The position numbers and the translations under genes were made by a program. The notes under the pieces are model-generated. The model saw only the letters and a list, made by a program, of their open reading frames with translations. It was not told where the DNA came from and ran no database searches. From contig NC_089325.1 of NCBI RefSeq assembly GCF_036669915.1, forward strand, positions 16,911,718 through 16,975,717: DNA of 64,000 nucleotides. Direction: 5' to 3'. This document shows, in pieces, positions 3,991 to 58,182 of this stretch (position 1 is the first letter of the stretch; every line of letters begins with the position of its first letter). Origin of the DNA: Pocillopora verrucosa. Lineage: Eukaryota > Cnidaria > Anthozoa > Scleractinia > Pocilloporidae.

Positions 3991-4039
3991 TGCTTCAGTG
4001 CAACAAGACCTTTAAAAAACGTCGGAAGTCACATGAACG

Positions 4040-5137
4040 ATGCAAGGAAATCTCAGCAACGTATCTAACGATATCCTCGACGCTGATGCAGAGTTTGACG
4101 GAAAGATTGTATTTCTGGTGTTCGTGTTGTTGCTTATCCTTGCAACAGTCGTTGGTAATGGCTTCGTATTCATGGCTGTTTACACATTCCGTGAGTTGAG
4201 GACGGTGACAAATTACTTCATAGTGGCCCTTGCCGCCGCAGATGTGGCCGTTGCTCTTTTGGCGATGCCGGTATGGCTTGTAAGATCACTTGTTCACATT
4301 GAAAGGGAACAAGATAATTATGTGATGGATTTGTGCACCCAATGGATCGATCCATTCTGTTGTACAGCATCCATTGTGAACGCCACGTTAGTTTCCATTG
4401 ACCGTTATTGTGCCATTAGCAAGCCGCTACGCTACAGAACCATGGTGACACCACTTCGTGCTAAGCGCTCCATTGCCGTGGTTTGGGGATTCGCAGTGGT
4501 CATTGCAGGAATCTCCTTTCTGCAATTTCATGAGTCCTACACGGTTATCGAAGGCTATGTTATATTTCTATTCGTGACGCTATTTTGTATTCCCTTAATC
4601 ACGATGTCGTTTGCGTATATCTCGATCTGCAGGGCAGCCATCCACCAGATTTCTAAGATGCACTCCACACGACTTAGCTCAACGTCTTACGATCAAGACA
4701 GGAGGCAGTCGTTTGAACGACGAAAACGCTTCTTCAGAGAACTAAAAATCACCAAAATGCTTGCTGTCATAGTGAGTCTGTTTATAATTTGCTGGAGTCC
4801 ATTCCTTGTGGTAACTCTCATTGAAGCGTTCACGACTGAGGAAATTCCACTTGCAGTTCAAGGTGTCATCGTCTTTCTTCCCTACGTGCTTTCATGCGCA
4901 AACCCTTGGATCTATACTGGAATGAACAGGGATTTTCGTTTGGCCTTTAAAAAGTTTTTTTGTACCTCAAAGATTCTATGCCTTAAACGTTCCAGAGAGC
5001 GCAGCGCAAACGAGCGCATGTTAAGGCCACTACCGTCGACCACAGTCGACGAAACCTTCATTTCTAACGGCTTGCGACAAGGGTCCAACTCGATTCGAAA
5101 GGTTTCCAGTCGTGGACCAGAAATTACAACTGTTTAG
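4040..5137 (+). CDS. Rhodopsin-family (class A) GPCR, aminergic-like, intronless
   Basis: A 365-residue seven-transmembrane receptor that would couple an extracellular ligand to G proteins at the plasma membrane. Class A landmarks are clear: GN at 39-40 (N1.50), LAAAD ending at D68 (D2.50), C99 (3.25), DRY at 121-123, W149 (TM4), P185 (TM5), FIICWSP at 248-254 (TM6) and NPWIY at 288-292 (TM7). By counting from DRY, D104 falls at 3.32, the amine-binding aspartate. N4 and N7 are in N-glycosylation sequons on a short N-terminus. The tail is basic, has cysteines at 308 and 314 that could be palmitoylated, and ends in TTV, a class I PDZ-ligand form. Odd point: the loop between TM4 and TM5 (about 161-172) has no cysteine to pair with C99. 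The start at 4040 gives a normal N-terminus; an ATG at 4033 is in another frame and closes quickly. The single exon fits the many intronless GPCRs of cnidarians. Ligand unknown. Confidence 0.95.
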   Translation: MQGNLSNVSNDILDADAEFDGKIVFLVFVLLLILATVVGNGFVFMAVYTFRELRTVTNYFIVALAAADVAVALLAMPVWLVRSLVHIEREQDNYVMDLCTQWIDPFCCTASIVNATLVSIDRYCAISKPLRYRTMVTPLRAKRSIAVVWGFAVVIAGISFLQFHESYTVIEGYVIFLFVTLFCIPLITMSFAYISICRAAIHQISKMHSTRLSSTSYDQDRRQSFERRKRFFRELKITKMLAVIVSLFIICWSPFLVVTLIEAFTTEEIPLAVQGVIVFLPYVLSCANPWIYTGMNRDFRLAFKKFFCTSKILCLKRSRERSANERMLRPLPSTTVDETFISNGLRQGSNSIRKVSSRGPEITTV

Positions 5138-8100
5138 CTTTTGAGATGGACTCAAAGAAAATATCAATTAACTCCTTCATCTCCGATTGTTTTATCGATC
5201 GAACTAATGACATTTTAAATATGATTTATAACGCAAAGGATACACTCTTGCCAAAGTTAAATGGATAAGGAGAATAAGCTGATTTTCTCAATTAGAGAGT
5301 GACATTGCTCAGTATACTGCTAGAATGATTGCGTTCGCTCACTTTCATTACTTGAGCTGAATGCACCACATTTATATCGAAAGGCGATAAATGTTCTGAA
5401 TTCAGCTAAAGAAGATTTACGGTCATCTTCGAAAACACGGCAGACGCAACTTAGATCCAAACCCACGTCCATTTACATTAATGACCTGTTTGTCTTATAC
5501 GATAAAGGATGGAAAATGGGCAGAAATGTCTTTGTAGATGACTGTTTGAAAATAGAAACTTAAAAATAGCTAGTGTTGGTGTCGAGTCGTCGGAGTAAGG
5601 TTCCTTCAATTAGTGATATATTTGAGATATATGTAGAAATATTGAGGAAAACTGGCTTTTTGTTTATGTTAAAAAGGCAGGCGAAAGCGTATAGATGAAT
5701 TCAAATTGTAATGAAAGATCATCTTTTCGTCTTCTCGTTCGATATTTTGCAAAACATACAACAAAGGATATTGTTTGGCTCATGTAGATTTTGAACCCAC
5801 GATTTACGTAACCGAATTAAGGTTGAGAACAAGTCGGGGATTGGTCACTGTCGATGAGAAACAAATACGTTTTTTTGGTGACCGAATGCACCAGAAATTT
5901 TTATTGAGGTTTTCTATTGAGCATGAAAAACCTTTGCCATTCACAGGCACACTGCAGCTATGAACATGGGTGATATGAGAGTCTTTTAAAGCGGAACGAC
6001 TAACGGCCATGTTTAAACGCGTTGAAAATTCAAAGTAGTTAATTTCGTATCAAAAAGAATGAAGGGAATTTCTTCGAAGAAGTATATTTTCCAATAATCA
6101 AAACTCTGCGCGGGGGAAATAGAAAGAATTATGAAACGACTGGTGACCGATGGATTTCAGGCTAAAGACAACTGGCAAACAACGAAAAAATCTCATCTTT
6201 TACTCTTGCCAAAATGCTGTTTGTCGCAGTCAATCTTGATCATTTTGTTTTGTTTCAGTCGACAGCCATACACAATATACACAGAAAGGTCAGAACTTAT
6301 AGGCAATTTCGTGTTTTTTCATTTCTTCGCCGCAGCTATCAGAGAAACCAATCCTAACACTGAATCTGATTAGGAACACACTAAGAAAAAAGCTTTCCGA
6401 AATTTAAGGATAATACCATGGAAGACATACACCAGAGATGTCATGTGTTACTATTCTAAATCTGTACCGAAGCATTTTTTGCAGTGACGCTTATGTGCAG
6501 ATTTATTTGCGATCGTATTTGCATAGCTAAATCTTACAAGAATAAAGATATTTTTTGGAGGCCATTCTAGTATTCATGGACGGCCTATCCAGTTGCCATT
6601 CCTAATAAAAATAGATAAATAGATGAGTTACGAACTTGCAGTCTTCGGTCTTAAAAGTTGTAAATATATGAAGATGACATCTGTTTGGTACAAACACCAA
6701 TCGTTGCATTTGTTCTGTAAAATAAACAAAATTGTTTGGGTTATGAGGGTTGTTTGGGCTGCCATTTGTGTCAATTTGTCTTGAATTTTTCATTCCATTT
6801 GAATTAAAATGACATAAAATTAACATTGAGCTCATCTGCTCTGTGCTGCTCATTTTAAAATGGACTTAAAGAGAGGCGGTACACCATACATTTGAAGGAA
6901 GTTTTTTTCTATATATTTATATGTTTTCAGCTCCGTTTTCTTTGATACTGTTCAAATAAAACCAAAATAGGAAATCCCAGCAAGGTGTTCCTCTGGTCAA
7001 AAGAACCGACAGAAAGTTTATTTACCGGTTCCTAATTTCCCTCACACGTTGTTGACGCACCCGAAAACTGAAAGGTGATTTGCATCGTACGTCGTTGATT
7101 GATATTATTTTTTATTATTCTTTTAAAAGTAAAATTTGCTCTTATTCGAGATATTCTGCAATCTGATTTGACTTCACGAAGCAATAATATGAGTTTGAGT
7201 CGCAAAAGGGATCTGATAGGTTTAAAAACCAGTAGAAGATGATATGTCATAGATTCAAAACAAGTTCTTCTACCTTTAGTTTCCTTTGATGAGTTGACAA
7301 TACATAAGCTTCCTAAGGAATTCCTTGGATTATGAAAGTTATATGTCACATATACGCATTGATTGCTGCGAAAAATGACTTTTTGTTTCAAGAAAACTTT
7401 TCTCATATTAGTCTACTTGTTTGTTTTACGAGGCTCGATCGTTGTAAACTTCAACTGTACATACACTGAGCAAATTGGTTGGAGCAAACTAAACTGGCAG
7501 CATTACATACTACGTCCTCGCTATCCCCGAAAAGGCAAACCACCAGCAAATATGTACATTATGGTCAAGTTTATATACATTTTCGAGTTGAATGTTAGGG
7601 GAGAAAAATGAAAAAGAAAAGAAATATCTAAGACTGAAAATTTCACGAGAGCAACAGCTTTATTCTTAACACTGTGGACATTCATGAAAACTTTCGGCTT
7701 TTTTCTTTCATGTGAAATAGCCAGTTAAAAATGTGAGCAAGAAAAAATCTTATAGTCCTGAAATAACCAATGATGTGCAGAAGGATTTGATTTTGCCACT
7801 GATTTGTTAAACATATCGTCTAAACAGGTAGGAAGATCGAGCTATTGAAATTATACAGTACAATATATACTACGGCAAATAAACGTTATTGGTTTAAGTT
7901 TTTGACAGAAAGTGTTTTTCCAACCTGAACGAAGTGCGATTGTAACGTGACACCGGCAACCGAACATTTCCCTCATTTTAAATCTATAAACAAGACATGA
8001 CTCAGAAACTTTTTCTGTGAAACATGAACCATTCGATGACTTCACATTGCATTTACAACAAGAACGGAATATTCTGTCATGTCTGTCCGTCAAATCGTCA

Positions 8101-14700: not shown

Positions 14701-15641
14701 AAGTGTAGTACAAATAATCAAGAAAATGGCAGGTATATCAAACAATTATTCCACAAGCTCTCATTGGATATGAGATGGTAAATGTCCAACCAGGCCTGTA
14801 GGGCCAAGTTGGCTATAATCATCTCACATCCAACACGCCTGAGTGGAATAATTGTTTCATTAAAAACACTCCAACATGTAGATAAATCTTCCCAACGTTG
14901 TTTTGCAAATTTCTTTTTTTTGACATGTTCACTTACCATATTACCACATTTGTAAAGCAGAGTATAATGGCTGATAACCCATGATGACTAGGCCGATATC
15001 ATGACATCATCATACTTAAGGCTTCTTACCTCTGACTGGACCAAAACAGCGTCATTAGAAACATCATTGCGGCTGTTCTCAACATTGATTGAGAATAAAA
15101 CCTCTAAGTTCACATAAGTCCACCTGATCACCAAAGAGAAAGCCAGTATGACAACAAAAACAGTTCGAGTCCAAATTGCAGTACTGAAGCCGGAAGATTC
15201 ATCACTGTGTGTCTCGTTAACAGCTGCTGTTGAAGGAAAAGTGTTATGTGATCGCGATCGAGTTGATGTAACTTTAGGTAGACGTTTTACCTCGTTGTCT
15301 AAAAAGGAATTTTCGTTAGCTTCTGAGTCCTGCGATCCACAGGTATTTCCCTCCGCTGGATACATATCGGAAATTTGGTCTCCTTGGTTTTTTTCCACTG
15401 GCAATTTCTTAATTTCTCCAGTTGTATAATCACTTTCTTTTGTATCGACTGACAGTATATTCTTGCAGGAATTATCTGCATTTCCCACGGAAGAAGAATT
15501 GGAAATGTTTCCATCTACAACAAGATTAGACTTTGAATTATCAGGATGGCTTGAACGACTGCCTAGAATTCTCTGAAGGCGACTCTCAGAATTTTCCAGT
15601 ACTTTTTTTCTTCTCTGTGCACGGCGCTCGGCGGCAGACAT
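11800..15641 (-). CDS. CAMLG: Calcium signal-modulating cyclophilin ligand (CAML/GET2)
   Basis: CAML is the ER membrane receptor that, with WRB/GET1, takes tail-anchored proteins from the ATPase TRC40/GET3 and inserts them. Three exons on the minus strand join in phase 0: 15641-15030 (204 codons), 12593-12531 (21 codons) and 12012-11800 (70 codons plus TGA). The product is 295 residues, close to the roughly 296 of vertebrate CAML. Every intron has GT-AG ends. The N-terminus (MSAAERRAQRRKKVLENSES, then RLQRILG) is the conserved basic GET3-recruiting segment. Residues about 35-150 are polar and poorly conserved. Three hydrophobic segments follow: about 160-179, about 206-225 (exon 2, PFLALQLLFVCVP) and about 265-284 (FFFSVVVVHCLVEY), with the conserved LCGIP motif in exon 3. 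The orthology is clear. Intron 1 is loaded with repeats; intron 2 looks plain. Confidence 0.95.
13025..13225 (-). mobile_element. tRNA-derived SINE in CAMLG intron 1
   Basis: Read on the minus strand, the element starts GGCAGTGTAGCCAAGTGG (A box) near 13221 and carries a perfect B box, GGTTCAAGTCC, at about 13169-13159. A roughly 130-bp non-tRNA body follows. The anticodon-stem region cannot pair, so it is not a functional tRNA. It lies in the same orientation as CAMLG. Confidence 0.7.
13500..13700 (-). mobile_element. tRNA-derived SINE with conserved central domain
   Basis: Minus-strand reading gives a tRNA-like head with a decayed B box (GAGTTTGAGCC, about 13645), then a block centred on TTGTGTTCATGGGCAAGACA (about 13629-13610). 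Blocks of this type are shared by SINE superfamilies across distant animals. The 3' end is not sharply defined. It lies inside CAMLG intron 1, in the gene's orientation. Confidence 0.6.
13781..14005. repeat. minisatellite, nine 25-bp units
   Basis: Nine head-to-tail copies of a 25-bp unit start at 13781, 13806, 13831, 13856, 13881, 13906, 13931, 13956 and 13981. The unit begins TGACCACCACAAGTACC and ends in a T-rich segment. Units 6-8 share one T-to-C change, giving TTTCATTT in place of TTTTATTT, so they probably arose by duplication of one variant copy. The copies are otherwise identical, which points to recent expansion and likely length polymorphism. It sits inside CAMLG intron 1. Confidence 0.97.
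14740..14857. mobile_element. foldback MITE in CAMLG intron 1
   Basis: The left end AAACAATTATTCCAC and right end GTGGAATAATTGTTT are perfect inverted repeats. Pairing continues inward (TTGGATATGAGATG against CATCTCACATCCAA, and CCAAC against GTTGG) for arms of about 55 bp with a tiny loop. No coding capacity. A non-autonomous DNA element. Confidence 0.75.
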
Positions 15642-15756
15642 TTTGGATAAGATAACTTCCTCCCTAGTCCTCCCCTACATTAGCTACCGTGGCAATCTGG
15701 ACTAAACTTGTCGACACTCTCTACGAATAAGTACTTCATTTAAGCTCACACAAAGT

Positions 15757-18713: not shown

Positions 18714-20010
18714 TCAACACACGGGCTGCTCTATTCTGCAGTTTGTCTCGTAGCGTTTTCCCACAGTTACCCCAAAGTGAGGTTTTACTAAGGCTTGGTA
18801 AACGAGATGTAAGGTTGATGCTGGGATCAGGTGCCTAATTCGCTTTAGGGCCCCAATACCAGAGGCGATCTTTTTGGTTAATTTTTCGATGTGACTATGC
18901 CAATCGAGTTTATCGTCTATTATTACACCAAGCGATTTCGTAGCTGTAACCTGGCTCACTTGAGTATTGTTCATTGTAATTGTTGGTGAAGCTGTGAGAG
19001 TCTTCAGTCTCTTCCTCGACCATATTAGCATGAATTCGCTTTTGGTCATGTTCAATGTAAGTTTGTTTGCTTGTAGCCAGTTGAAAACGTTTGCTAGGTC
19101 TTCATTTAGACAAAACTGAACATTCTCAAGATTACTGCCCGCATATGTAAGGTGTGTGTCGTCAGCGTACATTCTTGGTTTACAATTTGATAAGCAATTT
19201 GGAAGATCGTTAATATATAATAAGAACAATAATGGACCGAGGATGGTCCCTTGAGGGACGCATGTCAGTGAGTAGCTATTGGAAAGCGACCCGTTCACAG
19301 AGCATTTTTGTGTGCGGTTTTTAAGATATGACTGAAACCATTTGAAAGATTTGCCATGTATACCATAATAGTTTAGTTTCGATAGAAGAATCTGATGATC
19401 AACAGTGTCAAAAGCTTTCTTCAAATCCAGAAAAATGACTCCATTGATTTTCCCGTTATCAATATCATATGCCCAAGAATCTGTCGCTTCCAACAAAGCT
19501 GTTACAGTTGAATGATTAGCACGAAAACCTGACTGATTTTGACATAGAATATCGTGATCTTTCAAATAGGCATACAACTGTTCATAAACTATCCTTTCAA
19601 ACGCCTTCGCCACTATTGGAATCACCGATATTGGGCGGTAATTGTTTACATCACCGCGGTCACCCTGTTTATAAAGAGGGGAAACCCTTGCATATTTCCA
19701 GTCATCTGGGAACGTCCCTTGGTTAATAGATTGATTGAAAATATCACATATCGGCACACAAATAAGATCAGCATATTCCCAGACCAAACTAGCAGATATT
19801 TTGTCAAGGCCCGTTGCCTTTGACTTGTCTAGTTTATTTAAAAGTGAAATACTTTATTTGGATTGGTGGGTTGGAGCTTAAACCGTTATCTGTAGCGGTA
19901 AGATATCTTTGATAGCTACCACTATCGCAATTTATCTCACTGGAAAGTTTTGGACCAATATTAGCAAAGTGGTTATTGAATTCGTTTGATAGCTCCAACG
20001 GATTAGTTAA
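18714..20010 (-). pseudogene. LINE reverse transcriptase domain (broken)
   Basis: The main open stretch (19787-18714) holds the reverse transcriptase core in order: NNYRPISVI, SGFRANHST, FLDLKKAFDTVDH (catalytic Asp), VPQGTILGPLLFLLYINDLP and the YADD active site. Upstream, from 20010, the linker continues (NPLELSNEFNNHFANIGPK) but hits a frameshift and stop near 19845. Downstream the frame shifts at about 18780. The C-terminal region is then readable to about 18390 with in-frame stops, including a TAG shortly after VLTFSNYDADAT. It would have copied the element's own RNA at a nicked target; it cannot do so now. Confidence 0.92.
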
Positions 20011-21178
20011 CAAATAGAGAAGCCTTGACTGTGCTCTGTTCTGTTATAAAGCACTTAGGAAGTGGCTAGAGCACGAAAGAAGTGTAGGGAGAAACACGAG
20101 ACGTAGTCAAAATCAAAATCAAATCCTTCTGCATTATAATCCCTGTTAGAATGGTTCAAATAATCTGATTGGCTGTACAAGACTAAAGCTGTCAAAAGTG
20201 TCAAACCATCAAAGTTCAAAAACCATCAAAGTTCAAATTCTGCGATAGTTTACAAACTGAAATAGTTCGGCAGGTCGAATTTAACACTTTTGCCTGAAGT
20301 TTTTAAGTCTCTAATACAGAATCTTGAAGTGAAATTTGCAGTGAAATTCAGCTGAATTATGGCTCATAGAAACACGCGAGGATTTTCACATGACAAGGTA
20401 GAAAACAAACTGTTCAAGGCGAGCGTTTTTGAATGAACGACAGACGAATTCACCGGAACATGAAGATCGCTCGGGATGACAGCGCCACAAAACTCGGCTG
20501 CAGTGACTGATGTGACTTTCCACTCAATGCATCGGAAAGGATATCAGAGCAAGCTCTTATTTTTTCACTCGAAGGGCGGCCGACGTAGTTTCTGCCGGAG
20601 GCTTGCTTTACCATGATGACCGGAGATCGCCATGATGAGCGAGCCGCGATGGACTTCGGCATAATCATATTCGCTCAGACACCGTCATGATTAGTATGAA
20701 TTTTAACAGTTATGCCAGATTAGTTATATTTTTCATCATTTCTGTTTTGCTCTGTATTGTTTTTGAACACTGAACTTTATATACTATACGAGTGTTAGCT
20801 GTGTTTGATTTTTATTACCGTACGTAAGCTTGCAATCTAACTGAGCGTGAAAATCTTTAAAACTCGGAACGTCTATTTTGTTTTTCCTTTGAGGATTTTC
20901 CTATCTGCTCACGTTTTAATAACGTAAATGACGGCGCCTGGTATGTTTACAAACATTTGTTTGGTTCTTCTGTTGCTACTTGCCGGCTCGCTTGTTCCGA
21001 AATTTCACTTTCAATTATCGGAAAAAAGCTAAAAGGAAGTCCCGGAAAAGGTCGAACATAGTACAGTTTGGCAGATGGCGTGACAGCTTTAGCTCAGCTC
21101 TATGCTCTATACTCTCATAGAGCACGCTCTTTCAACCAATGACACCGCGCGTTATATCCGAACTTTATTATAATTATC
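20011..21178. mobile_element. 1.17 kb insertion inside the LINE, TTAA/GTTAA duplication
   Basis: GTTAA (20006-20010 and 21179-21183) flanks a 1,168-bp segment. Removing the segment and one GTTAA copy rejoins the LINE frame as VNGLT-NPLELSNEF, so the boundaries are exact. TTAA is the piggyBac target, but the ends (CAAATAG and CGATAAT read inward) lack the usual CCC start and show no long inverted repeat. No intact transposase; the internal open frames are short and featureless. A non-autonomous element of uncertain class. Confidence 0.85.
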
Positions 21179-21183
21179 GTTAA

Positions 21184-22392
21184 TCCGTTCACTTTTAGTG
21201 ACGCCACTGACGTTTTCCCAGATTTTCGAGAGGTTAGCTCGTTTATAGTCTGCCAGGTCTTTCGGGAGTCGCTGGTGTGCTTATTAAAACTATTTTGGTA
21301 ATAAACTAGCTTAGCTGAGCGTATTTGCTTATTGGTTATATTTCTTTGTTTCTTAAATAATGCCCAATCGTTAGGATCATTTGTCTTGCTAGCTTTGATT
21401 TTTAATATGTCCCTAGTATGCATAGAGTCTTTCAATTCAGAGGTAATCCATGGAGAACTCCGTGAACGAACACGCATCGTTTTCAGTGGGGCATGTTTGT
21501 CAGCAATAGCTAGAAATGTACATTTCCATTGCCGCCACATCACGTTTGGGTTGGAAGACTCATATACATTATCCCAATATTGAGATAGGATGTCATAACG
21601 AAAATTTTGACGATCGAAATTTGGGAAATTTCTATATGTAATAGAATTATGTCCATTAGACATTCCGTTCTGGGCAAGTTTTCTATATACATACACCATG
21701 CTATGATCACTTATCCCGATGTGACAAACTCCCGAACAAACGATCTTATCTGAGCAGTTGGTATAGATTAAATTAATTAGAGTTGAAGAGGTGGGTGTTA
21801 TCCTCGTTGGTTCAGAGATGAGCTGCTCGAGTCCGTAGACATCGGCAATACTCCTTAATTTGGATACGTCATTGTCATATCGAGTAGTGATCATATCACA
21901 GTTCATGTCTCCCAGTACAAAAGATTCTACATTTTCACTATCCAATTTTCCAATTAGGGATTCAAAAGGTGAAAAAATGCCAATAGGAGAGTCAGGTGGT
22001 CTGTACCAAGTAACAATCACAAAAGGTTTTGAATTTGGCTTATGGATTTCCAAGCAAAGATTTTCTAATGCACCCATATGTAGGTCATTTCGTACAGTAA
22101 AGTTGATTGAGGTTTTTACATAGAAGCATACCCCTCCGCCGGATTTTGTAAGTCTATCGCGGCGAATTATTTCGTATCCCGAAATATGAACTTCATGATC
22201 TCGAATACTCTCGTTCAGTTTCGTTTCATTTATGGAAATAATATCGATATCATTGTTTGCTAATAGGATTCTTAGCTCGTCTATATGAGTTGTTAATTGA
22301 TTAATATTGAATGATGCCATTTTAAAACCGCGCAAAGGAGGCAATAGTGAGATAGATTTTTCGGCTCTTTGGTTGCTTAATCGGTCCCGCAC
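21184..22392 (-). pseudogene. LINE apurinic-type endonuclease domain
   Basis: N-terminal part of LINE ORF2, the endonuclease (EEP fold) that nicks target DNA. Visible motifs, numbered from the ATG at 22392: FNIN at 28-31, NETKL at 55-59, TWYRPP at 128-133, GDMNCD at 161-166 and SDH at 228-230. The motif usually read as TLID has Asn at 207 in place of the expected Asp, a probable catalytic loss. The natural start may be the Met at 25 (MASFNINQL). The frame runs without stops into the inserted element at 21178, where it ends after about 20 unrelated residues. Confidence 0.92.
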
Positions 22393-22420
22393 GGCATTGA
22401 CGGAAATTTAATAGGTGGAG

Positions 22421-29300: not shown

Positions 29301-29418
29301 TGTAATAAAATATACTTTAAAACGGAAGATAATAAAATGCGGAAGAAATTGTGTGCACATTTTTAAATGAAATTCTTGCGATACTTACTGAAATGGAGTG
29401 GAAATTGTCTTTTCTCAG

Positions 29419-29784
29419 ATGAACGAGATACTCAAAATCTTGATGCTCCTGATGATTGCTGCCAGCACGGTGACACAGGATGCCTCACAAAGCGACAGTA
29501 TTGCGGTGAATCACAGTGAACCACAGGACACCGCACAACAGAGTGACTTGGCTTCAGCAATCAACAAACAACATCCTAGCAGATTGGAACCGTGTTTTCC
29601 ACTTTGCTTTCCGGACTACGGCAAGCGAGAATATCTAGTTGGAGAAAGGGCTGAAAAAGACTTGTTGAACACAAACAAAAGATCCCTGTTTAAACAAGTT
29701 AAAGGTTTCATTCCACAGTTTATATGGAAAGCTTTCAAACGAGAACAAGCATTAGAAGCAATTAAAAAGAGTGGAAGTCATTAA
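29419..29784 (+). CDS. Secreted peptide precursor 1 (possible neuropeptide or cationic peptide)
   Basis: Predicted 121-residue prepropeptide, family not recognised. Residues 1-20 are a signal peptide (MNEILKILMLLMIAASTVTQ). Residues 21-57 are an acidic, Ser/Gln-rich spacer. CFPLCFPDYGKR at 59-70 has two cysteines, then Gly-Lys-Arg, the standard signal for cleavage and C-terminal amidation. A second dibasic site at 87-88 and a third at 107-108 enclose SLFKQVKGFIPQFIWKAF, a cationic, amphipathic stretch; EQALEAIKKSGSH ends the protein. The ATG at 29419 follows a splice acceptor (TTTTCTCAG) directly, so upstream exon(s) would be untranslated and the in-frame ATG at 29398 is intronic. A donor at 29819 and acceptor ending at 30846 suggest a 3'UTR exon. 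The processing layout is seen; hormone or antimicrobial function is inference. Confidence 0.72.
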   Translation: MNEILKILMLLMIAASTVTQDASQSDSIAVNHSEPQDTAQQSDLASAINKQHPSRLEPCFPLCFPDYGKREYLVGERAEKDLLNTNKRSLFKQVKGFIPQFIWKAFKREQALEAIKKSGSH

Positions 29785-30030
29785 CCTCCACTGGGAATCA
29801 GGCAAATATAGACACAAGGTTAGTAGCTTGTTTCTTTATCTTATCCATGTGGTTGGACTGTATAATTTTTGAGATAGTTCTCTCTGTGTTCACATTGCAT
29901 CTTCAGCTCCTGCGTAATATGATAATACAAGTTCTCGCGGCAAACTCGACTCAACTGTCACTATGATAAATTTGTGGACACGAGGAAACTAATGCATGCC
30001 CTACCAACATACCTGGGTCGTATTATGTAC

Positions 30031-30189
30031 TTATTGACTGAGTGGGCGACTGGGGGAGGGGGGGGGGCCGGACAGGAGAATATTTGGCTCGAGATCATGA
30101 CTTAGGGACCTAGGGTAGCGAGTTCAATGCGTCATGACCAAGAGCCAAATATTTTACCGTCGGGCCCCAGTCTCCCACTCAGTCAATAA
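30031..30189. mobile_element. foldback MITE (TTATTGACTGAGTGGG ends)
   Basis: The left end TTATTGACTGAGTGGGCGAC and right end CCCACTCAGTCAATAA are inverted repeats. Pairing continues through CTGGGG/CCCCAG, GAATATTTGGCTC/GAGCCAAATATTTT and ATCATGAC/GTCATGAC, so the arms cover nearly the whole 159 bp. It lies in the proposed 3'UTR intron of peptide 1. Confidence 0.8.
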
Positions 30190-30846
30190 GCATCTTATCA
30201 TATGACCAATAAATGTTACAAAATTTCGAAAATTTTTTTCGAAATTTTTTCGACCAAAATAGTACGCGATAAACGGATGCAAGCGGGACAACCAGAAAAA
30301 GGACTCTACCATAAACTTCCCCCTTTGTTTCTTCGAGTCAGAACAAGAAACTCAGAATTCATCGAAAAACGCGCCTATTTTGCTACTTTCTTTTTCCTTT
30401 AAGTTTTTTGCGACAGAGCCGTGTGAGTGTAGTACCGGTAACCAATCAAAACACAAGATTCGCTTCATACTACCCGAGGGCACTGCCAGCGATATGATAT
30501 GTTCACTTCCTCTCCCTGTTGTAAGAGCCAAAACATTTTTATCTTGGATGGGCCTATCAATTAGTATAAAGAATCTTTCAAATGAGCGCTCTTATTCTTC
30601 CACGTTTTTCATTTACCTAATTAATTCTTGTGTTTTTTACGTTACCGTGTTCCCACCAAAAGCGTGACTCCATTTTTCTGCATTCAAACCCCACGTAAGC
30701 CACAATTCCTCTATTCGCTCTGACGAAGGGCTCATGTTCAAAACGTTAGCCTTAGCAACTCTTTTCAACGGCCAATTTTCATCATCATCTCATTTAATCA
30801 AATAAAATTATCTAACCATCAGTGTGTAATTTTTGTATTATTACAG

Positions 30847-33616: not shown

Positions 33617-36600
33617 ATGGGTAAGTAGTAGACATTTTATCTGAATGTTGTTAGGGTGCATTACCTATCAGCGTCTTAAACCATCATAAGTCCGTGTGCT
33701 CTTTAAAAAATATCCAGGCTTACTGAGAATGATTTGATTATCGTCACAAATTCGCCACTCGGGGAATTCTCCTCCAAGAAATCTTGATGGAGCGTCAATC
33801 CCCAGTTTTATCTCCTTGATCATGAAGAGCGAGATGTTATGCTCCTAGGTTCATAATTGTTCAGTAATATCTGAATTGAACCCAACTGAAGCGAATAGGG
33901 CGCCTTTCATTAAATTTGTACTCTCTAGAAATCGATAATGGTCCGACAATTTGGCACAACTTTCGACAATTAAATTGACGGTAGGATATGAGAGCAAAGA
34001 AGGGATCCATACCGAATCGTCAGTATTGTTTGGAAAAAAAAACTCTTTCTTTCTGTCTTTATGTCAAGAGGCACGACAAGGAGCCGTTCCTTTTAATCCA
34101 ATTTTGAAAAACTGAAAAACAAAGCGGATGTATCGGTCAATAGGGGTGCATATACGCATGTACATCAAATTGTCTTTGACCTTATTATGGCATCAATCGT
34201 TGCAGCAAAATTTCAGTTGGAAACTTCTCGTTCTGTTGCAATGATTAGTTAACAGTAGGGAAGATGTAGGCGAGGTTGTCTTTTCTTAGATATTTTTAAC
34301 CTTTTATCGACTACTAATTGAAAGAACAGCGGATGGCAACGTGTCAGATTAAGTAATTAGTCGATGAAATATAACCGTTTGTCAGTTCTATTGCTGTTAT
34401 TTAGAGGGCAAGCCGAGACCGATGGTACGAAAGCAATAATGAGTGTAAACATGCAGTGAAACCAGATCAAGCCAAGCTTTACATTTCATACGAATAATAA
34501 AGAAACTGGTTCAACCAGTTTTTCGAAACTTAAAAAATCTTTACATACTTGTTATAAGATATCTCCCCGATTGGAAAATAATACTAAGAGAATGCTGGCC
34601 TTAACACAAATGAAGCGTCGATAAATCTATATCCAAACCCACAAATTCTCGTCAACTGAGCGATCATCTAAGATCAGTATAAATGTATTTTTGGGTGGGA
34701 AAATTTGCTTTAAGGAAGTAAATTTCGTGCGACTATCAGCGTAAACGTCCGATATTAGGGTTGAAAGTTAACCCTAAACATGTTAAATTTGATTTTATGC
34801 CAATGTTGATGGTATTTGAATCATACTATGCTTTGGGGAGGTTCAGTGTGCTATTTTAGGAAGCGAACGAGAAAATTTTGCGAAGAAACTTCCCACAGTT
34901 CTCATGCTAAAAGCATCAGCTTCCTAACAGGTGTTCCTCTCCCTTCCGAGGGCTTCTTTCATTGTGGTGCGCAAAGTTGAAACTAATATCTGAACGACCA
35001 CTTTTCTAAATGCACTAAAGTCCACTGGCGTTTTCAATAATTAATTTGTCGAGCAACGATTAGCTGTCTGCCCTTTAGCAGTTATACAGTTCGATAGTGG
35101 ATATGGGTGTATCCTCTCGTGTCTCGACAAGTTGTAAAACTTGAAGGTCAACCATAGTGATGGTTGAGTGGACAGTTTCTTTCCAACTATTACCATCTTT
35201 TATGGCGTAAATAAGGAAAACGGAGATGTAACGCATGTTACACGTTGCTCTCGACTAGGGCGGTGAGGCGCCACGAAACTCGTGGACATTAAAGGAGAAA
35301 TTTCTCTCGTTTCTCGTTTCTTTTAGATGATTATAAGAAAGACGGCAAGAAAATGGTCAAAGAAGAGTCCAAGGAAGAGAAAATGTGTGCACAGTGCAGC
35401 AAAACAATTGAGGGCAAGTTTTTGCTACGAGCTTTGGACAAGTTTTGGCACGAAGAGTGCTTGAAATGTTCGTATTGCAACACACAGCTGGCAGACTTAA
35501 GCTTTAAGTTTTACCTCAGGGAAGATTTAAAACTTTGTAAACGAGACTACATCAGGTAAAGCATAAATGTTTCTTTTCTAATTGCAAGAATATCCGTGTA
35601 TTCATCCTCTCTATCATTAAGGAAGAATTATATAGTGAAACTTAAATACGCAGGAACCATTTCTACAGATTTTAAAATTGTTCAATTTTTTTCATTGTAA
35701 AATTTTCCTGAAAGCTCAGAAAAGAAAACGGAATACTTCTGTTTGTGATCATTAGATTCTATTGCTGCGCAATAATGATGAAGATAGAAGAAGTATTAGG
35801 ATTAGTTCGTAAAATTTGTAGATTTTCGCTGTACAGTTTTAATTCCTTTCCATGGTTATAACCTTGGCCCAGATCAGTAACTCCGGTAATTCCACGGCAT
35901 ATCAATTTCCTGCTCAAACTTTTTAAACCTTTTACTAACCATTATACTGAAAACTGGCCAACAGCCAACTTAATCAGTTTATAATTACTAAAAACGGCAA
36001 CATAGTCCAAAACGAAATAAGAACTTAACGAATGTTCTCTTTCCTCTTTAAAAACTATATCATAATACAGTATGGTGTGCATTACTAAACGCTTTTTATC
36101 ATTTTTCAAGCTGGTTGAAAAGATTTATCTATGATGGACGCTGAGTGAAAATGCTTCAGCTTCCCGGCAAACATATTATGAAGTTTGGTTGAATAAACTC
36201 TACATGTTGTTAGCTTCTGGCACAAACGGGAAATGGGTACTTGATCAAATTCTATTTCCTTGATCGGAAGGCGACAGTTAATAATAACTACTTTGTTCTG
36301 AATAAGGCAACACACTATCGTGTAATAAGTTTGAACCTTGTCGATGATTAGCCAGTGAATGAGCCTTTAACTGTAAATTTCCACAGCGTATTAACAGGTA
36401 AAATTACCGGAAATTTTCAAGTGAGCACCAGCTGCTTGCATTGTTAAAATTAACTTGCTGTGTTTTCTCCTTTTTCTTTTATATTTCTGTGTACTCGATA
36501 AAGTTTTTTTTTTTGGATATTTTTCAGCTGAGAGATTCTCAGTACACGATATCTAGTATGTGTTCTCTTGATTATTTATTATTACTCAACTGAACGTAAA

Positions 36601-39078
36601 AACTGCAGATAGACCGTCTTGTTAACATTAAGAGGAGTGATGCGTCCGTCTTCTTGAAATGCAGACACAACTGATTAGCAACTACAGTAATTAATCAACG
36701 ACCTTAACAGGATCAACAGTTTGTGAGTGTTCTTACTCAAATCAAGCTGTGAACCTACCTCTCACATTTTTTCTAATTCACTAACACATAAATATATATT
36801 CAAAAAATGCTGTATTAATGAAATCAAGCGAGCATTCATGTTCCATTCCGCAGCCATAAAAAAGTTCGTTAACTCATTTCTTCAGGCCTAAATGGCAATT
36901 TTCAGGCCTAAGCCTCTACGGGTTAATAATATCACTGCTACCATTCGACCTTCTGTCATCCTTTTAAACAAATTAAATTTTTTATAAGCTGCTTTTGTCT
37001 GGGAGCATAAATCTGTCTTCAGTTTTACACGCAGGTATCGCAAACAACATAATCGGATCTAAGGGATTATTCCACTAAGTCCGCGTAAATTGATCGAAGA
37101 CAGCCAGCCTCTTGCACGTGACCAGCTGAGAGGATGGTTCTCAGTGTATTTATAAGACATAGCATGTTTCCCTTTTTATTATTCCAAGCGAAACTACACT
37201 CGTGGGGATCATTCTGTCAACTCTGGAATAAATACCCTTACCTATACGTGACCTAATCGACTGAAAGTCATGACTCTTTTCAGTAAGTTAAAAATGTAAA
37301 GCAATCTCCATGTTCTTTGTGATAGCTGTTTATATGGCGAGAGATGACATTTCCTTAAACATGAAACTGAGTAAAAATGCTATAAGTTATAAATAACCAG
37401 CTATGGTAAATTGCTAAAAGTTTTCACCAAATTTTTTAAATAGCTACGAGATTATAACCACACACGGCGTTTCTCATTTCACTGACCTTGGCACGTAGAT
37501 CAATTTTGAAGTATAATGGGTTTTGTTTACTCTCCCTTTATTTGCTTTAAATTTATCACATGGCAGTGTTTAAGTAACCTTTAATCTACTGCAGACATGC
37601 CTTTTTTTAGCAATAAGTCAGGTGATAACTTACTTTAGCTTCTCTTCATCATCATTGAATTTAACTGGGCAGTTTTAAAAATCCTCACTGTTACTTTGAT
37701 GATGCTTTGGCAATGTTTCCTAGTGACTAGTGAACTTCGATCAGAAGTAGTTATAAATAAAGTCATTGAGTGGCTCAATATTTTAGCAATACCTTGGGGA
37801 CGCTCATTATTTATTAACGGGGGGGGGAGTGGGGGCGGTTGGAATATTTTCTTTGTGTCCGGATAAAACTTACCTGATCCCCCATAAGACTGAAATATTC
37901 GAATGATCCACCTCACTCGCAGTCAATATTTTAGCTGGCGATGACTGATCTTCCCTCGTTCCTCCTGAAAACCACGTGTTTCCCCAAAATACCATTTCCC
38001 CCCACTCCCCCCCCCCCCCCAGCCAAGGCGATAACTAATGAGGGAGAGCCATGTTGCATACTAAAAATGGACGTTATTTGAGCTGATAAAGATCTGATCA
38101 TACCTTAATATGACAAGAAGTATGTTTATTATTGTATTAGATTGCAGTCGAACTTTTTCATATCGTGAATCTTTGGGCAGCAGAGGGGCGTTTCTCAGTT
38201 AAATCTGTGAGCGTTCCAACAAAAGATTACTCTGAGAAGCACTCTGGAGTCTGGCCAATATGGTTATTGACACTAATGATAGGAATGGCTTTGTCTGAAT
38301 ATTTTAAGGTCTTTTAATGGAATATATTCAGTATTAGGTTTCTTAAGCGCACTTTTCACCTCAGTTCAATTGTATTTATTGTTGTTTATTGTCATATGTA
38401 CTTAATGCTGTACATTGTAGCGTTCTTTTTGCTGAAAAGTTCACAAGTTCTTCCCAAGAAATTTAAATTTGTTAGTCGATGTCGTAATTTGGATAGGTTT
38501 CACTGAAGCTTATTTGATAAAGGTAGGCCTTTTGCAATTTTCGATGGCTCGCTTAATAAAATTGCTCTCTGGACAGAGGAAAAAACAAGGAAATTGAAAT
38601 TTAGTCCCCATTGGAACAAAAATCAAAATTGTAACACGGGCCCCAGGTTTGAGAGCTAACCCCCATATTTTGCCTTGTTTCGTTGTGTTCCATCTCCTTC
38701 AGGAGATTTTGAAAAAAAAAGAATCTTTACCTATTTGACATCGCCGTACTGCATCATTCTTTCTTCAGACGTTTCCCGTAGATATTATGCCCACTCCTCT
38801 CTCGGCTGTCCTTACATATTAGCTTTTATTTTCATTCCAGGTTATTTGGTGCCACTGGACAATGCGCACACTGCTCCAAAACGATACTACCGCTGGAAAT
38901 GGTGATGCGGGCTCGTGAGCACACGTATCACCTTGATTGCTTCGCCTGTCACATCTGCCAGTACAGATTCTGCGTCGGCGACAAGTTTTTCCTCCACTTT
39001 CAGGTGGTACTTTGCGAGGCTGATTACAATGACATCACAAGCATTTTCAACGTCAACGACATGGCTTACTATGTGTGA
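33617..39078 (+). CDS. LIM-only protein (LMO1/3-like), copy A
   Basis: LMO proteins are nuclear adaptors: two zinc-binding LIM domains that bridge LDB/CLIM and bHLH or GATA factors, with no DNA binding of their own. Three coding exons: 33617-33620 (ATGG only), 35327-35555 and 38841-39078, all with GT-AG introns, in phases 1 and 2. The product is 156 residues, the same as human LMO1. LIM1 uses C22, C25, H43, C46, C49, C52, C72, D75; LIM2 uses C86, C89, H108, C111, C114, C117, C136, D139. A Lys/Glu-rich N-terminus precedes LIM1. MVMRARE, YHLDCFAC and FCVGDKFFL in LIM2 are LMO1/3 signatures. The ATGG exon is supported by a strong donor (GTAAGT) and by an identical arrangement in copy B; the internal ATG at 35353 would lose ten residues. 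Tail-to-tail with copy B, with about 2 kb between stops. Confidence 0.92.
37802..38046. mobile_element. G/C-run MITE, near full-length copy 2
   Basis: Ends CATTATTTATTAACGGGGGG and CCCCCC...CGATAACTAATG are inverted repeats. The interior has a GTGATTTT-like C/G-run body and, on the minus strand, an AGATCAGTCATCGC block shared with the other copies. Runs of nine or more G or C are present at both ends. It lies in intron 2 of LMO copy A. Confidence 0.65.
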
Positions 39079-41033: not shown

Positions 41034-44000
41034 TCACCAAAAGAAAGGAGTCTGATAAAAGTAACCCCTGTCGCCATAATAGTGATCTTGACAGCGGATT
41101 GTGTTGTAATAAAGGTAGAACCTGTCTCCAACGCAGAATCTATAACGACACACGTGACAGGCGAAACAGTCCAAGTGATAGACGTGTTCACGAGCCCGCA
41201 TGACCATTTCTAGCGGTGGAATGATTTTCAAGCATCGAGAGCAAATTCCTGTGGCTCCAAACAACCTAGATAAAAGGAAACAAAAGATATTGTGATAATA
41301 TTATGATAAGGTAAAACTAGGCAAAGAAGCAGAACTTTCTTTCAAAAATGTGAATTGTTTCACGAACCTCCATCCCTACCCCCCCCCCCTCCAAAAAAAA
41401 AACAACAAAACAAAAAAGATAAAGATAGAAAACAACATGGATAAGAATCAATTTCACTTTACAAGCTGCGCGTCCAACGTGGCTTGGAAATATCATTTAC
41501 TATTTCAGATATTTTACTTTTCAATAAAGTGCTCTCCATGCTCCACCAAAGCGATGAAGAGAAAATCTATTATAGCTCTGCTTAAGGTCAAGGCTGAGCT
41601 GTACGATTGTTTTAAAACAAAAACGGCTAATTGGCATTACAATGCTTATAACATGTACAGTGGGGATCATTTTATCAGCTGGGAAGGCCTTCGGCTTTGA
41701 CTTTTTTTCCTTTTGTCCTGTAGTTATCCACATGCGCAGAGCTGAAGTTATCTCCTAGTAGTTGATATCCTTGAAGTCGCTAAAGAACATCTGCCAGATT
41801 ATTGTTTCAAGTTTCGGGCAATTAGATATTACAACTAAATTTAACATTAAAACAAGATGAATGTCAACCTAGACGACGGCATACCAGCGAGAGAGTATAA
41901 GATTTGTCAGCTCTTCTTGTCGTGTTAAAACCTTAGTTTGGTTAGCACAATTGTTTCGTGCATTCAGCTGTCTATTATCGCATTATTCTGCACTTGAAAA
42001 GTTTGAAGAGCACTCAGAAAGCTACCATCACTTATTATCTTACGCGTTGTTTTGTTATTTTCTCATTCCTGTCTCTTTCTCTCAGATTTTCAATTTCTTT
42101 AGTCTTATTACGGGTCAAAAGTCGTTGCGATGAAACAATAAAACTAATTGTCAATCAAAGCGCCGATGTTAAGAACCGACCGAACCTAACCCGGCTCTGT
42201 CTGCTTGAAATAAGATTAAAAAGATTCTAGGATTAACATCTACGAGGAGTTTTCAAGTATTTTGTTTAGTATCAAGCTGTAAATAATTTGTGCGTTGACA
42301 CTTTAACCAAGTCAAGGCGAAGAAAGAGGGGAACTCTGATTGAGAAAAAAAATCAAATTTTGGCTCACTGCACTATGTTTTTTTTCCAGTTCTGATGAAA
42401 GTTGCGGAGTCTCGACCGTCAACATTCCATATAGAACGCGAACTTTCAAGAGATGACCTCAGAAAACACTAATCTCTAACATTTTAGCACAGGGTCACTC
42501 AGTATTAGCTATTTTAGCAATCCATTGTACAAACAATTTTTGGACACTGAAATATGCGACGTGAGCATGGAATTGCAGGAAATAAGAGCGTCTTCATTTG
42601 AAATTTCTACTGATATGCGTTTCTGTAATCGCTATTATGTGATTTAGGATGTAGTTACGGCGACGCCAAGAAAACCGTCGCCGGAAAATTCCTTTCAATT
42701 CCTCTAAGAATTTCGCCTGTAGTTTGATGTTTTAAACGTTTCTGACGCTGCAAGATCTCTCCTCCAGCATTAAATGTGAATTCAGTGATGTTTACTTTAG
42801 TCTCATTGCCGTTACTGTTAGGATAGTCTTTAAGTCCTTAGGAACGGAAGTCGTTTTAATTGTACTCTTCAAAACGTAATTAATGAAGTCTTTACTGTTT
42901 ATTCAATAAAACCACGAAATTGCACGATAGCCACGAAATAGTATGAACTTTTGCTGATTGAATTTCCCAAGAACTGAATTTTTATTGAGCACTGCAAAAA
43001 GCTTTCTATCACTTCGGCTACCCTCTCAAAATAGGAAGAGCAGATGATATGCAAACTGAAATTGCCTATCAATAGTCTGAACTGGCCTGTGAGATCGATC
43101 CAGTCATAAATAGAATAACCTTCTTTATGTCATAAAACCAACGGCTGCCAGATTCTTCAGTTCCTAAATTGTGTAAAATATTCTCATGGAATGTAGAAGG
43201 AAAAAGGCAACGCCGCCATGGATAAAAAAAGTGACTGATCTGGTTCGTCAGCTTGCTCGGTGAGATGTAGATTGAGAAGAAGATGCAAATTTTGACACAG
43301 GGCCTTTTTTATTAGAAGTTACATTAAGTTATTTATATTGTCTGAGCCTCTCAGGAATACTCAGTATAAAAATTCGCGTGAAGCGATCAAGAAACAGTCT
43401 CAAGCCGAGAAGTTGTCAAGGCACCGAAACTTACTCAACAACTCATTCTATTTTCTGCATCACCACTTTTAAAGTTCTCAGTTTCAGCCTTGAGTTGTTC
43501 AGATTCTAGATAAGATTTTAAAGAATATTCGTTTATGGAAGTACATCTCAAAAGAATAATATTCAAGGAAGAAAATCAAGGAACAAGGAACAAGCATGCC
43601 ACGGAAAGGAAACAAATTGATCAGTTGCAAATCATACCGCATATGACACCGTCAGATACCCGTTGAAAATAATTCGTTGCTAGCGCGACGCTGCATCATT
43701 CAGAACACGAACTATTTTTTTTGCGAGTATTTGACATTTTGTTTCTGTGTATGTCATGTTAAACTCGTGAATGTGCGGTTGGAAATCCATGTGGAATGGA
43801 AGACCAGACTCAAAACATCATGAAGTTTGAGGTAGGGACTTAGAACGCGATGCCAGAAAACTTTGCTAGAAAACTCGGAAGGGCCTCGAATGGGACTCTT
43901 GGTCAGGACAAAACACCTCGTTATACCAGCCATGCACGAACTTTTTTTTACGAAAATAATTTATTACATGCTAAATCTTTTGCGCCTTTAAAGTACTTTC

Positions 44001-46433
44001 TTAACTGTTTTGCAAGTTTATCATAAACTTGATAATCAAACTTTCCTTAGCCAGGCAACGTGCGGCTAGTCACGCGAAAACAAACTGTTCAATGTATTCA
44101 GAAACACACAGTACAAAAACTAAAGAACACGTTTTTACGATTTTAGTTGCCTTTATTCTTGAATGAAACAAAGAAATGTAGTTACTAGATACATCCTTCA
44201 GATGGGGTCGATTTTTCCGTAGGTTGTGGGTTTTTGTTCATCATGTACTCAGTCTCGTCACTGCTCTTGTTTAGATTTTGAGCCTTCTAGTTTCCTTGAC
44301 ATTATATATATTAAGCATTGAACTTTTCAGTGGCTTAACAGAAGTTCATTGGTGGCAGGAAAACCACAGGTTCTGAGTATGTATCAAATCTGGCTGAGTT
44401 TTACGAGAACACATATAAAATCAACAATTTTTGGGGGGATTTTTGTCTACATCAAGGTAATCCAGGACCCATTTTCGTGTTATATACGAATTTTATCACA
44501 AAAAATTACTTCAAGTTAAAGAACTATAGCATAAAATATTCCGTGATTGTTTTTGAAACCGCATATCCTCCCACAAGAAACCTCATTTCATATTTCTTCA
44601 AATCTTAGAGCTAAAACCATAAATTATTCAGTCCTCTCATCTCTCTGACGAGAGAACACAAATATCGCACTGACGTCGTCGCTAATTTTAAGTGTCTCCG
44701 CTAGAGTAAACTTCAAACTTCCCTTGTAAAGGCGTTTTTGGATTCATTACCGTACATTTTCTGTTAAGATCGAACGAAAATAACCCCGATTTTAAACAGA
44801 GGGGCAACTGAGTAAGGATTAACGAGCATCTTGACGGATAGTGCCGGATAAAGATGAATTTCATTAATTTATGTTAACAGGTTTTTGGGGTTCTTGAAAG
44901 TTGTTTAAACCTCGAAATCTTTTAATCCTGTTAATGTGGAATACAGTTTCGCAACGCGATTTAACCTCCATGCACGGAAATGAAAGATTCCCAAGACAAA
45001 ACATAATGCCACGATATGTTTCAAGTTTAAATCATGTGTTCGTGATCAGAGCATAAACATTATGAATTATTGATACCATAATGTAAAATATAAAACGTCA
45101 TAAGAATATTACTTTCAGGTAAAAATAATGAAAGGAATTGCTGTCGTATTTCTCCTACGGGAAAGAGTTTTGCTACATCGATATTACGCCATTTTCAAAC
45201 TTCTGATCCTAGCTACAGCGCTAAGTAATATATCTCATCGAAGATGCAACCCTGTTTTCAGTGCCACAATATATTTAACAGTGTCATCCAGTCCGTGCGC
45301 TTCAGCATTACAGGAAGTCTTTGAGCTTTACTCGTTTTACTTTCGAACAGATTTGACGAGTTTTCCTTCAGATTCCGGCTTGCAGAATAAATAAAAGAAC
45401 TGTTTTTATAATAAGAAAACTTCTCACCTGATGTAATCTCGCTTACAAAGTATTTGATCTCCTTTGATGTAAAACTTGAAGCTTAAATCAGACAGTTGAG
45501 TATTGCAATACGAACACTTCAAACACTCTTCATGCCAGAACTGGTCTAAAGCTCGCAGCAAAAACTTCCCCTCTATCTTTTTGTTACACTGCGCACAGAT
45601 TTTCAGTTCCTTAGACTTTTCTTCTTCCACCTTTTCACCATCATTCTCTTTGTCTTCTGCAAGTGAGAAGGCGCTCATCAGAGCACAATTGAAATGTTTA
45701 TAACGCGCGTGAGCCCACGCGTGTGTGGCTGAGAAGTTCCGCTCACGGCCGAATGAGGATTCAACAGTTCATTATATTCACAGCTGCGGCTCACTTATAA
45801 TCTGTTGGCTAACAGCTCGTTTACCTGCGGCATATAATTTTGCGCCTTTCTGTTATTATGATATCGCTTTCGCTTCCTTGCTACAATTCTGCGGTTTGAC
45901 TACTGCAGTGCTGTAAAGAATTGAACAATTTTAAATCTCATAAATTAAAAAGTGAAATAGGCTTGAGCTTCCGTCGTTCATCATAAAGTCTTGAATCCTC
46001 TAGAAGCGAGGGGATAAATCGCTTATTACTGAATACATCCGGACATTCTAACGCCTACTGAGAAAATTTAAAGAAAGCTGTTGAAACATTAGTTAGGCAC
46101 GGGGGCGAAAGAAAAAATTATGGGGTCTGACTCAAGGTTTCAATTTACTGGCTTGTGCGGTTTAATAAACTCTGTTATTGCCAAACACTTAAGCAATGTT
46201 TATCTTTATGTCATCAGCGATTCGAATAACTAAGTCTGCAAAAGCTGTCTTTCTTTGAAAAATCTGTGTGTAAAACAAACTTCAAAAGTTTGGTTAAAAA
46301 AAGTCAAAAGTGGCAAGGAATACCTTAATTCACAGACTGAATTATTTTGCAAAACGGTCATTGTACATCATAGCCTAAAACTTGGAGTTAGTGAATAAAA
46401 AGAGGTTTATCAACCACAAAAAAACTTACCCAT
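41034..46433 (-). CDS. LIM-only protein (LMO1/3-like), copy B
   Basis: Paralogue of copy A on the opposite strand, with the same likely role as a nuclear LIM adaptor. Coding exons on the minus strand: 46433-46430 (ATGG), 45656-45428 (229 nt, the same length as in copy A) and 41265-41034. The product is 154 residues. LIM1 uses C22, C25, H43, C46, C49, C52, C72, D75; LIM2 uses C86, C89, H108, C111, C114, C117, C136 and H139 as the last ligand (Asp in copy A). Exon 2 is nearly identical in sequence to copy A through LIM1 (for example EGKFLLRALD, FWHEECLKCSYCNTQL), while the last 20 residues differ and end aromatic (GYFYQTPFFW). The ATG at 45678 opens the same frame but sits before a good acceptor (TTCTCACTTGCAG), so I treat it as intronic. 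Confidence 0.92.
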
Positions 46434-57600: not shown

Positions 57601-57900
57601 GGAACGAGGAAAAAAAACTAAAAGGTAGTTTCTTAACGCATTGGGTGGAAATGTTTTAGCCGCACGTTTCAGTTCCATACTCCACTTTTTTTCGATGTAT
57701 TTTACAAAAGCTACACTTAACTCGCGAATAACAAGCTTTTGTTTCCAAAGGCAAAACGTAAAGCTACAATCAGATTTGAGTGGGTAATAAAGAAATGAAA
57801 TTCGAAAAACCGTAAGCGTTTATTTTCGATTACTTATCGGTTACAATTGAATTTAAGGATAGTTTTTTTTGGATTTTGTGGATCGTCTTAGAGAGTATTT
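54607..57900. other. intergenic, no gene recognised
   Basis: AT-rich. A block at about 54815-54950 contains repeated TTATGTAAG/CTTACATAA-like segments and may be a decayed repeat. Open frames near 55.9-56.2 kb overlap on both strands and carry no domain. Confidence 0.5.
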
Positions 57901-57974
57901 TATAATATAAAAGAGTTCAGTGCTGCGGATCAACTTACTGTTTCTCTTTCCAATGTCAACAAGACAACACATCA
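57901..57974 (+). promoter_or_regulatory. proposed promoter and 5'UTR exon of peptide 2
   Basis: TATAATATAAAAG at 57901-57913 is a good TATA box. About 60 bases on, ATCA|GTAAGAG at 57974/57975 is a plausible donor that could splice to the acceptor ending at 58673, directly before the peptide 2 ATG. Inferred from sequence consensus only. Confidence 0.35.
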
Positions 57975-58182
57975 GTAAGAGCTGATACGGAATAAGCCGG
58001 CGAAAAGTCATGGAACATAAAAAGATACTCGATAAAAGAAAGTAGTCACAGATTTAAGACGAGGTTCTGTCCACACAAGAGTCTACCTTTCTTTGGAATT
58101 GCTTCTTTCTTTTCTTAGTTTTCCCAACTCTCCACACTAATCTGGCCTTCTGATGTCCAAACGAGAAGAAATTTGATGAGGA

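Follow-up and report, generated by a model that had tools for sequence, protein, structure and literature searches.

A candidate coral prepropeptide gene with a predicted disulfide-ringed, tyrosine-amidated peptide

The stretch of DNA analysed here (the window, 64 kb, C14:16911718-16975717 of the genome assembly) contains a 121-residue open reading frame, P0001, that can be read on the + strand from an ATG at 29419 to a TAA at 29782-29784. The features found in the window, in order, are as follows.

4037-5134, + strand: rhodopsin-type receptor, from a domain match
14991-15674, - strand: Get2-like exon, below the Pfam cut-off
18717-22407, - strand: LINE-type reverse transcriptase and endonuclease frames
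29405-29418, + strand: putative 3' splice acceptor ttgtcttttctcag, its last base adjoining the ATG of P0001 (from sequence; moderate score)
29419-29784, + strand: prepropeptide reading frame P0001 (from sequence, null model and single copy)
29819-29824, + strand: donor-like site ACAAG/GTTAGT, 34 nt past the stop, a possible 3' UTR intron (from sequence)
35293-39075, + strand: LIM-domain exons, gene one
41037-45768, - strand: LIM-domain exons, gene two
58674-58885, + strand: first coding exon of P0004, with signal-like start, RERR, SPCSSGGC and basic tail, preceded by tatttccag (from sequence)
59557-59629, + strand: predicted second coding exon of P0004, tail WGLPDDDLTDIIGYNDQQKSIDN and stop (splice model)

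The LIM-domain exons belong to what look like two similar convergent genes lying between P0001 and the next peptide-like gene. Just downstream of P0001, and before an AATAAA, there is an inverted repeat (30030-30190) with 26-nt arms that are 96% complementary, resembling a short transposable element.

The reading frame itself divides into the following segments.

29419-29475, + strand: signal-peptide-like segment, residues 1-19, its end placed by eye from hydrophobicity
29476-29589, + strand: acidic spacer, residues 20-57, net charge -4
29590-29619, + strand: predicted peptide 1, PCFPLCFPDY, residues 58-67, with a presumed Cys-Cys ring and Tyr-amide
29620-29628, + strand: Gly-Lys-Arg amidation and cleavage site, residues 68-70
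29629-29676, + strand: second spacer EYLVGERAEKDLLNTN, residues 71-86, net charge -2
29677-29682, + strand: Lys-Arg site before the 18-mer, residues 87-88
29683-29736, + strand: predicted peptide 2, the 18-mer SLFKQVKGFIPQFIWKAF, residues 89-106, charge +3, helical moment 0.40
29737-29742, + strand: Lys-Arg site after the 18-mer, residues 107-108
29743-29781, + strand: C-terminal tail EQALEAIKKSGSH, residues 109-121

An earlier reading of this DNA, made from sequence only, had described a signal-like start, an acidic spacer, CFPLCFPDY followed by GKR and an 18-mer enclosed by KR sites, and both the coordinates and the motifs of that description proved exact. The hydrophobic core at the start has a mean KD of 3.09, and it is by hydrophobicity only that the segment qualifies as a signal peptide. 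There are four dibasic pairs, one of them within the GKR and the fourth a KK at 116-117. The sequence holds no dibasic site on the N-terminal side of the two-Cys peptide. The sequence-only reading was right about the GKR end of this peptide and probably one residue short at the other, as its N-terminus is more likely to be Pro58. We prefer PCFPLCFPDY-amide to CFPLCFPDY-amide because the longer form follows Glu57 and begins with Pro, as in Nematostella, where cleavage beside acidic residues ahead of Pro-bearing N-termini is described in the available part of a peptidomics report (PMC11087051).

The length of P0001 is unremarkable, being 130 residues from stop to stop against 134 for an adjoining anonymous frame (30263-30664). 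Since length alone proves little beside this longer frame, we scanned for the precursor format instead. The sample comprised the window and 22 10-kb loci (L004-L025, four flanking the window and 18 remote), 284 kb in all, drawn from contigs C14 and C13. To pass the strict filter, a frame had to begin with a hydrophobic stretch, measure 60-200 residues, contain one or more G[KR][KR] and three or more dibasic pairs, and lack any hydrophobic segment further on. As the null, a 4th-order Markov model trained on the same 284 kb generated 125.4 Mb of simulated sequence. Three ORFs passed where 0.33 were expected, and in the 100-200 residue range two passed (P0001 and L005:1812-2330) where 0.027 were expected, although these expected counts serve as a guide and not as a strict probability because the thresholds were chosen after P0001 had been seen. 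Counts in this sample are also raised by real coding sequence, as seen from signal-like ORFs of 100-200 residues, with 15 observed against 2.4 expected. The amidation and dibasic sites of P0001 are above chance expectation under the same null model.

Codon usage sheds no light on P0001: among 183 other open frames, 6.6% do at least as well, the training set held only 786 codons, and the LINE reverse-transcriptase frame scores no better. Protein and DNA searches of the 353-Mb, 52-contig genome returned only the self match, and on the strength of this single-copy status a repeat origin for P0001 was rejected. A candidate paralogue in L003 (E 3.81) was taken as chance, the ORFs of that locus having no precursor layout. 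No relatives of P0001 were found in Pfam, PDB, IMG/VR or GTDB. This lack of a homologue, together with uninformative codon usage and the presence in the window of similar-length frames of no known function, is what a chance open frame would look like. Set against it are the rarity of the format at 100-200 residues (0.027 per 284 kb) and an ATG that sits at an acceptor-like site. A chance origin is unlikely, and we regard it as very improbable indeed.

The acceptor-like site deserves separate mention. ttgtcttttctcag is a pyrimidine tract and CAG immediately 5' of the ATG, and its crude acceptor score at 29418 is equalled or beaten by 594 of the 15,603 + strand AG sites in the 284 kb, itself counted. 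The frame is open for 9 codons upstream of the ATG, with a GTG start at 29398; despite this, the ATG at 29419 looks like one placed directly at an acceptor. The same arrangement of CAG and ATG recurs at window position 58674 (P0004) and at L005:7420 (P0003), while at L005:1812 (P0002) the acceptor ends 10 nt before the ATG. A YAG directly precedes the ATG in 2 of the 3 strict hits, in 3 of the 11 ORFs listed by a relaxed scan and in 7 of the 147 ORFs that passed the strict filter in the null. From the pyrimidine-rich CAG we infer that the P0001 frame is probably a single coding exon behind a 5' UTR intron, and the acceptor at the ATG and the donor-like site after the stop would suit a coding exon that is complete and has untranslated exons on either side. 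The same two sites, and the 9 open codons upstream, also permit further exons, so that P0001 could be only part of a larger gene, or of one with different splicing, and its start or end could be wrong, for example if 29418 is the junction with a coding exon further upstream. We hold this to be improbable, given that the frame has a full signal-like start and a stop and that two neighbours likewise have their ATG at an acceptor.

There are two other ORFs that pass the strict filter, and both lie within 37 kb downstream of P0001 on the same strand and carry P-C-X4-C. The first is P0004 (ORF 58674-58889), in which RERR and SPCSSGGC are followed by a strongly basic proline/arginine tail; its second exon was picked from sequence among three acceptors and would give the product an acidic end. 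The second is P0002 (L005:1812-2330, + strand, 172 residues), located 1.8 kb past the right end of the window and about 36.4 kb from P0001. Its Cys motif occurs four times, three times as P-C-X4-C and once as P-G-C-X4-C, in the units PCISWQC-RR, PCISWEC-RRKRR, PCLTRDC-RT-GKR and PGCLSWFC-QN-GKR, so that two of the motifs are followed by X2-GKR. A looser match, P0003 (L005:7420-7650, + strand, 76 residues), has its ATG right after ttcag, an AATAAA 53 nt past the stop, and ENKR-GFRGLPPITRKGR with an acidic tyrosine-rich tail; no Cys pair is present in its mature part. The relaxed scan also gave a 52-residue ORF in the window (57853-58011, - strand) that has a G[KR][KR] and falls below the 60-residue floor. 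Strict hits were absent from the 18 remote 10-kb samples and from the flanking loci L004, L024 and L025.

The strict filter has no cysteine criterion, and a C-X3-4-C is nevertheless found in all three strict hits against 9 of 147 null ORFs, and in each of the three a Pro stands 1-2 residues ahead of the first Cys. This excess of Cys pairs is only suggestive, because real secreted peptides often bear Cys and three hits are a small number. P0002 and P0004 are, much like P0001, single-copy in the genome. BLASTP gave no homology of P0001 to either, and the 5' regions of the four peptide-like ORFs yielded no convincing alignment. P0002, P0003 and P0004 match no Pfam family (the sole match, DUF1242 to P0003, has E 0.42), no relative of P0002 was found in IMG/VR and its best PDB match has E 0.18. 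In the literature searched, the P0002 and P0003 peptide strings matched only an unrelated medical paper. As judged from their sequences, P0001, P0002 and P0004 share a format and not a detectable homology.

One possible explanation for this shared format is that the three P-C-X3-4-C precursors, on one strand and within about 37 kb, would encode a family not described before, its members being disulfide-ringed and partly amidated signalling peptides that descend from one ancestor and have diverged in their bodies beyond detection. We consider this doubtful, and our estimate was lowered by a look-alike 0.9 Mb away (L021:7168-7332, + strand, C14 near 16.007 Mb), with which in view the local clustering is less striking. 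The look-alike is a 54-residue signal-like ORF with SLCPKNGC-GRRRR, a C-X4-C, that missed the strict filter only by the 60-residue floor on length. In a spliced model (7168-7308 joined to 7755 onwards, + strand) it would have a two-chain layout with a second two-Cys chain after KRR. It was left out of the local set as a remote look-alike.

The layout of P0001 had been read as that of a neuropeptide or host-defence precursor. The precursor layout is borne out by the null model, the acceptor at the ATG and the two ORFs of the same format nearby, and it is the host-defence half that has been weakened, owing to the low amphipathicity of the 18-mer. Described at first as cationic and amphipathic, the 18-mer does carry a charge of +3, but 8.3% of shuffles reach its helical moment of 0.40 (P 0.083) and there is a Pro mid-chain. 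As this amphipathicity is not clearly above chance, we do not call the 18-mer an antimicrobial peptide. A precursor for host defence or epithelial secretion would direct the cationic 18-mer to membranes, with the acidic spacers neutralising it before cleavage and the two-Cys part being secondary. The charge of the 18-mer, the KR on both its sides and spacers of -4 and -2 would suit such a design. In addition, neurosecretory cells of coral planulae make short, taxon-restricted, Cys-conserved secreted proteins, for which antimicrobial or adhesive roles are weighed by the authors in the available part of their paper (PMC12225738). We consider this reading unlikely, since besides the weak helical moment and mid-chain Pro the amidation site belongs to the two-Cys peptide and not to the 18-mer, and no Pfam family match was found. 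By analogy with the planula proteins, a defence or adhesive role for the product is conceivable.

The KR sites could also remain uncut, in which case the C-terminal half of a secreted protein would form a small helical domain with Lys-Arg pairs as surface residues. A single-sequence AlphaFold2 model places helices at 75-95 and 98-118, crossing the KR sites, and another at 3-21 with low confidence. The model is of low confidence, with a mean pLDDT of 55.7 and a pTM of 0.22 from one sequence, and four dibasic pairs (one in the GKR) in so short a chain suit a propeptide better. An uncut protein is quite unlikely in our estimation.

Comparison with known peptide systems places the predicted two-Cys peptide near several of them and inside none. 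In vasopressin/oxytocin precursors, a peptide with a Cys1-Cys6 ring is encoded together with neurophysin in one precursor. The likeness to P0001 would lie in a ring closed by a disulfide, from which an amidated tail extends. The ring has six residues in vasopressin/oxytocin and would have five in P0001, which has C-X3-C, no PRGamide-like tail and no Pfam match, hence no neurophysin domain by that search.

For hexacorals, a survey of preprohormones (PMC7523074) lists, in the part available, PRGamide, RFamide, GLWamide, RPamide, ITRFamide, HIRamide and RWamide families, with phenyllactyl peptides in sea anemones. The P0001 peptide has none of the named C-termini (PRGa, RFa, GLWa, RPa, HIRa, RWa) in that text, and the FPDY-amide end agrees with the original judgement that it is not recognisable as any named cnidarian family. 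A term search of the survey's text gave no mention of cysteine, cyclic or disulfide and one of 'cystine', about vasopressin. P0001 resembles the hexacoral preprohormones in its signal-like start and predicted amidation, and RWamide precursors likewise hold one copy of their peptide (PMC7523074, in part), whereas its peptide lies mid-precursor with a second KR-bounded peptide after it. In the texts of the papers searched, the P0001 peptide strings matched only an unrelated plant paper.

A further comparison is to the cyclic FRamides (CXXXMCWFRamide) of Scyphozoa and Cubozoa, as described in the available part of PMC6909153. These are likewise short amidated two-Cys peptides with an expected ring, a second Cys that is followed at once by an aromatic residue, a GKR-type C-terminal site and, on the N-terminal side, G, N, D, E or S in place of a basic site. 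They differ in having C-X4-C and a WFR(X)amide tail, against C-X3-C and FPDYamide in P0001, and the jellyfish precursor has several near-identical copies where P0001 has one. Compared with a C-X3-M-C ring followed by an amidated WFR, the P0001 CFPLCFPDYG departs in both ring size and tail. Cyclic FRamides are reported, in the same excerpt, as lacking in Staurozoa and Octocorallia. By analogy, the P0001 peptide would work as they do.

Our best reading, to which we give a probability of roughly 55%, is that a real gene, present in one copy, stands at this locus and that its product P0001 is a small secreted prepropeptide which releases a disulfide-ringed, tyrosine-amide signalling peptide. The signal peptide would be removed first, and cuts at Glu57-Pro58 and at the GKR, with amidation, would then yield (P)CFPLCFPDY-amide. 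The two Cys, three residues apart, would close a five-residue ring and leave an exocyclic FPDY-amide tail. The calculated [M+H]+ values are 1198.506 for PCFPLCFPDY-amide and 1101.453 for CFPLCFPDY-amide, both with the disulfide, and 2184.237 for the 18-mer as the free acid. If expressed and secreted, we infer, the ring peptide may bind a receptor as a signal, as is thought for vasopressin-like or cyclic FRamide peptides. The 18-mer could be freed from the same precursor at its flanking Lys-Arg sites, to serve as another bioactive peptide or simply as a spacer, and the earlier suggestion that one gene releases two unlike products is plausible on this layout.

Amidation is feasible in this genome, as genes with a Cu2_monooxygen domain are present, with 32 exon matches, 31 of them over the family cut-off and several with an in-frame stop. 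This domain provides the amidating enzyme with its catalytic fold, and the family is wider than that enzyme, including dopamine beta-hydroxylase types. Clusters of the exon matches on C9 (7.84-7.97 Mb) and C3 (18.56-18.59 Mb) are apparently tandem monooxygenase copies. Points that count against the signalling reading include the single peptide copy, the moderate acceptor score, the absence of a dibasic site before the two-Cys peptide, the lack of a homologue in the collections searched, the uninformative codon usage and the missing homology to P0002 and P0004. Many hexacoral neuropeptide precursors are multi-copy, according to the survey in its available part (PMC7523074).

If expressed, P0001 would add a disulfide-ringed amidated peptide not met in the available parts of the cnidarian neuropeptide papers compared here, and would provide synthetic ligands that could be tried at once on orphan receptors. 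Considered alongside the neighbouring ORFs, it would also allow a test of whether early animals evolved ring peptides of the vasopressin or cyclic-FRamide type more than once.
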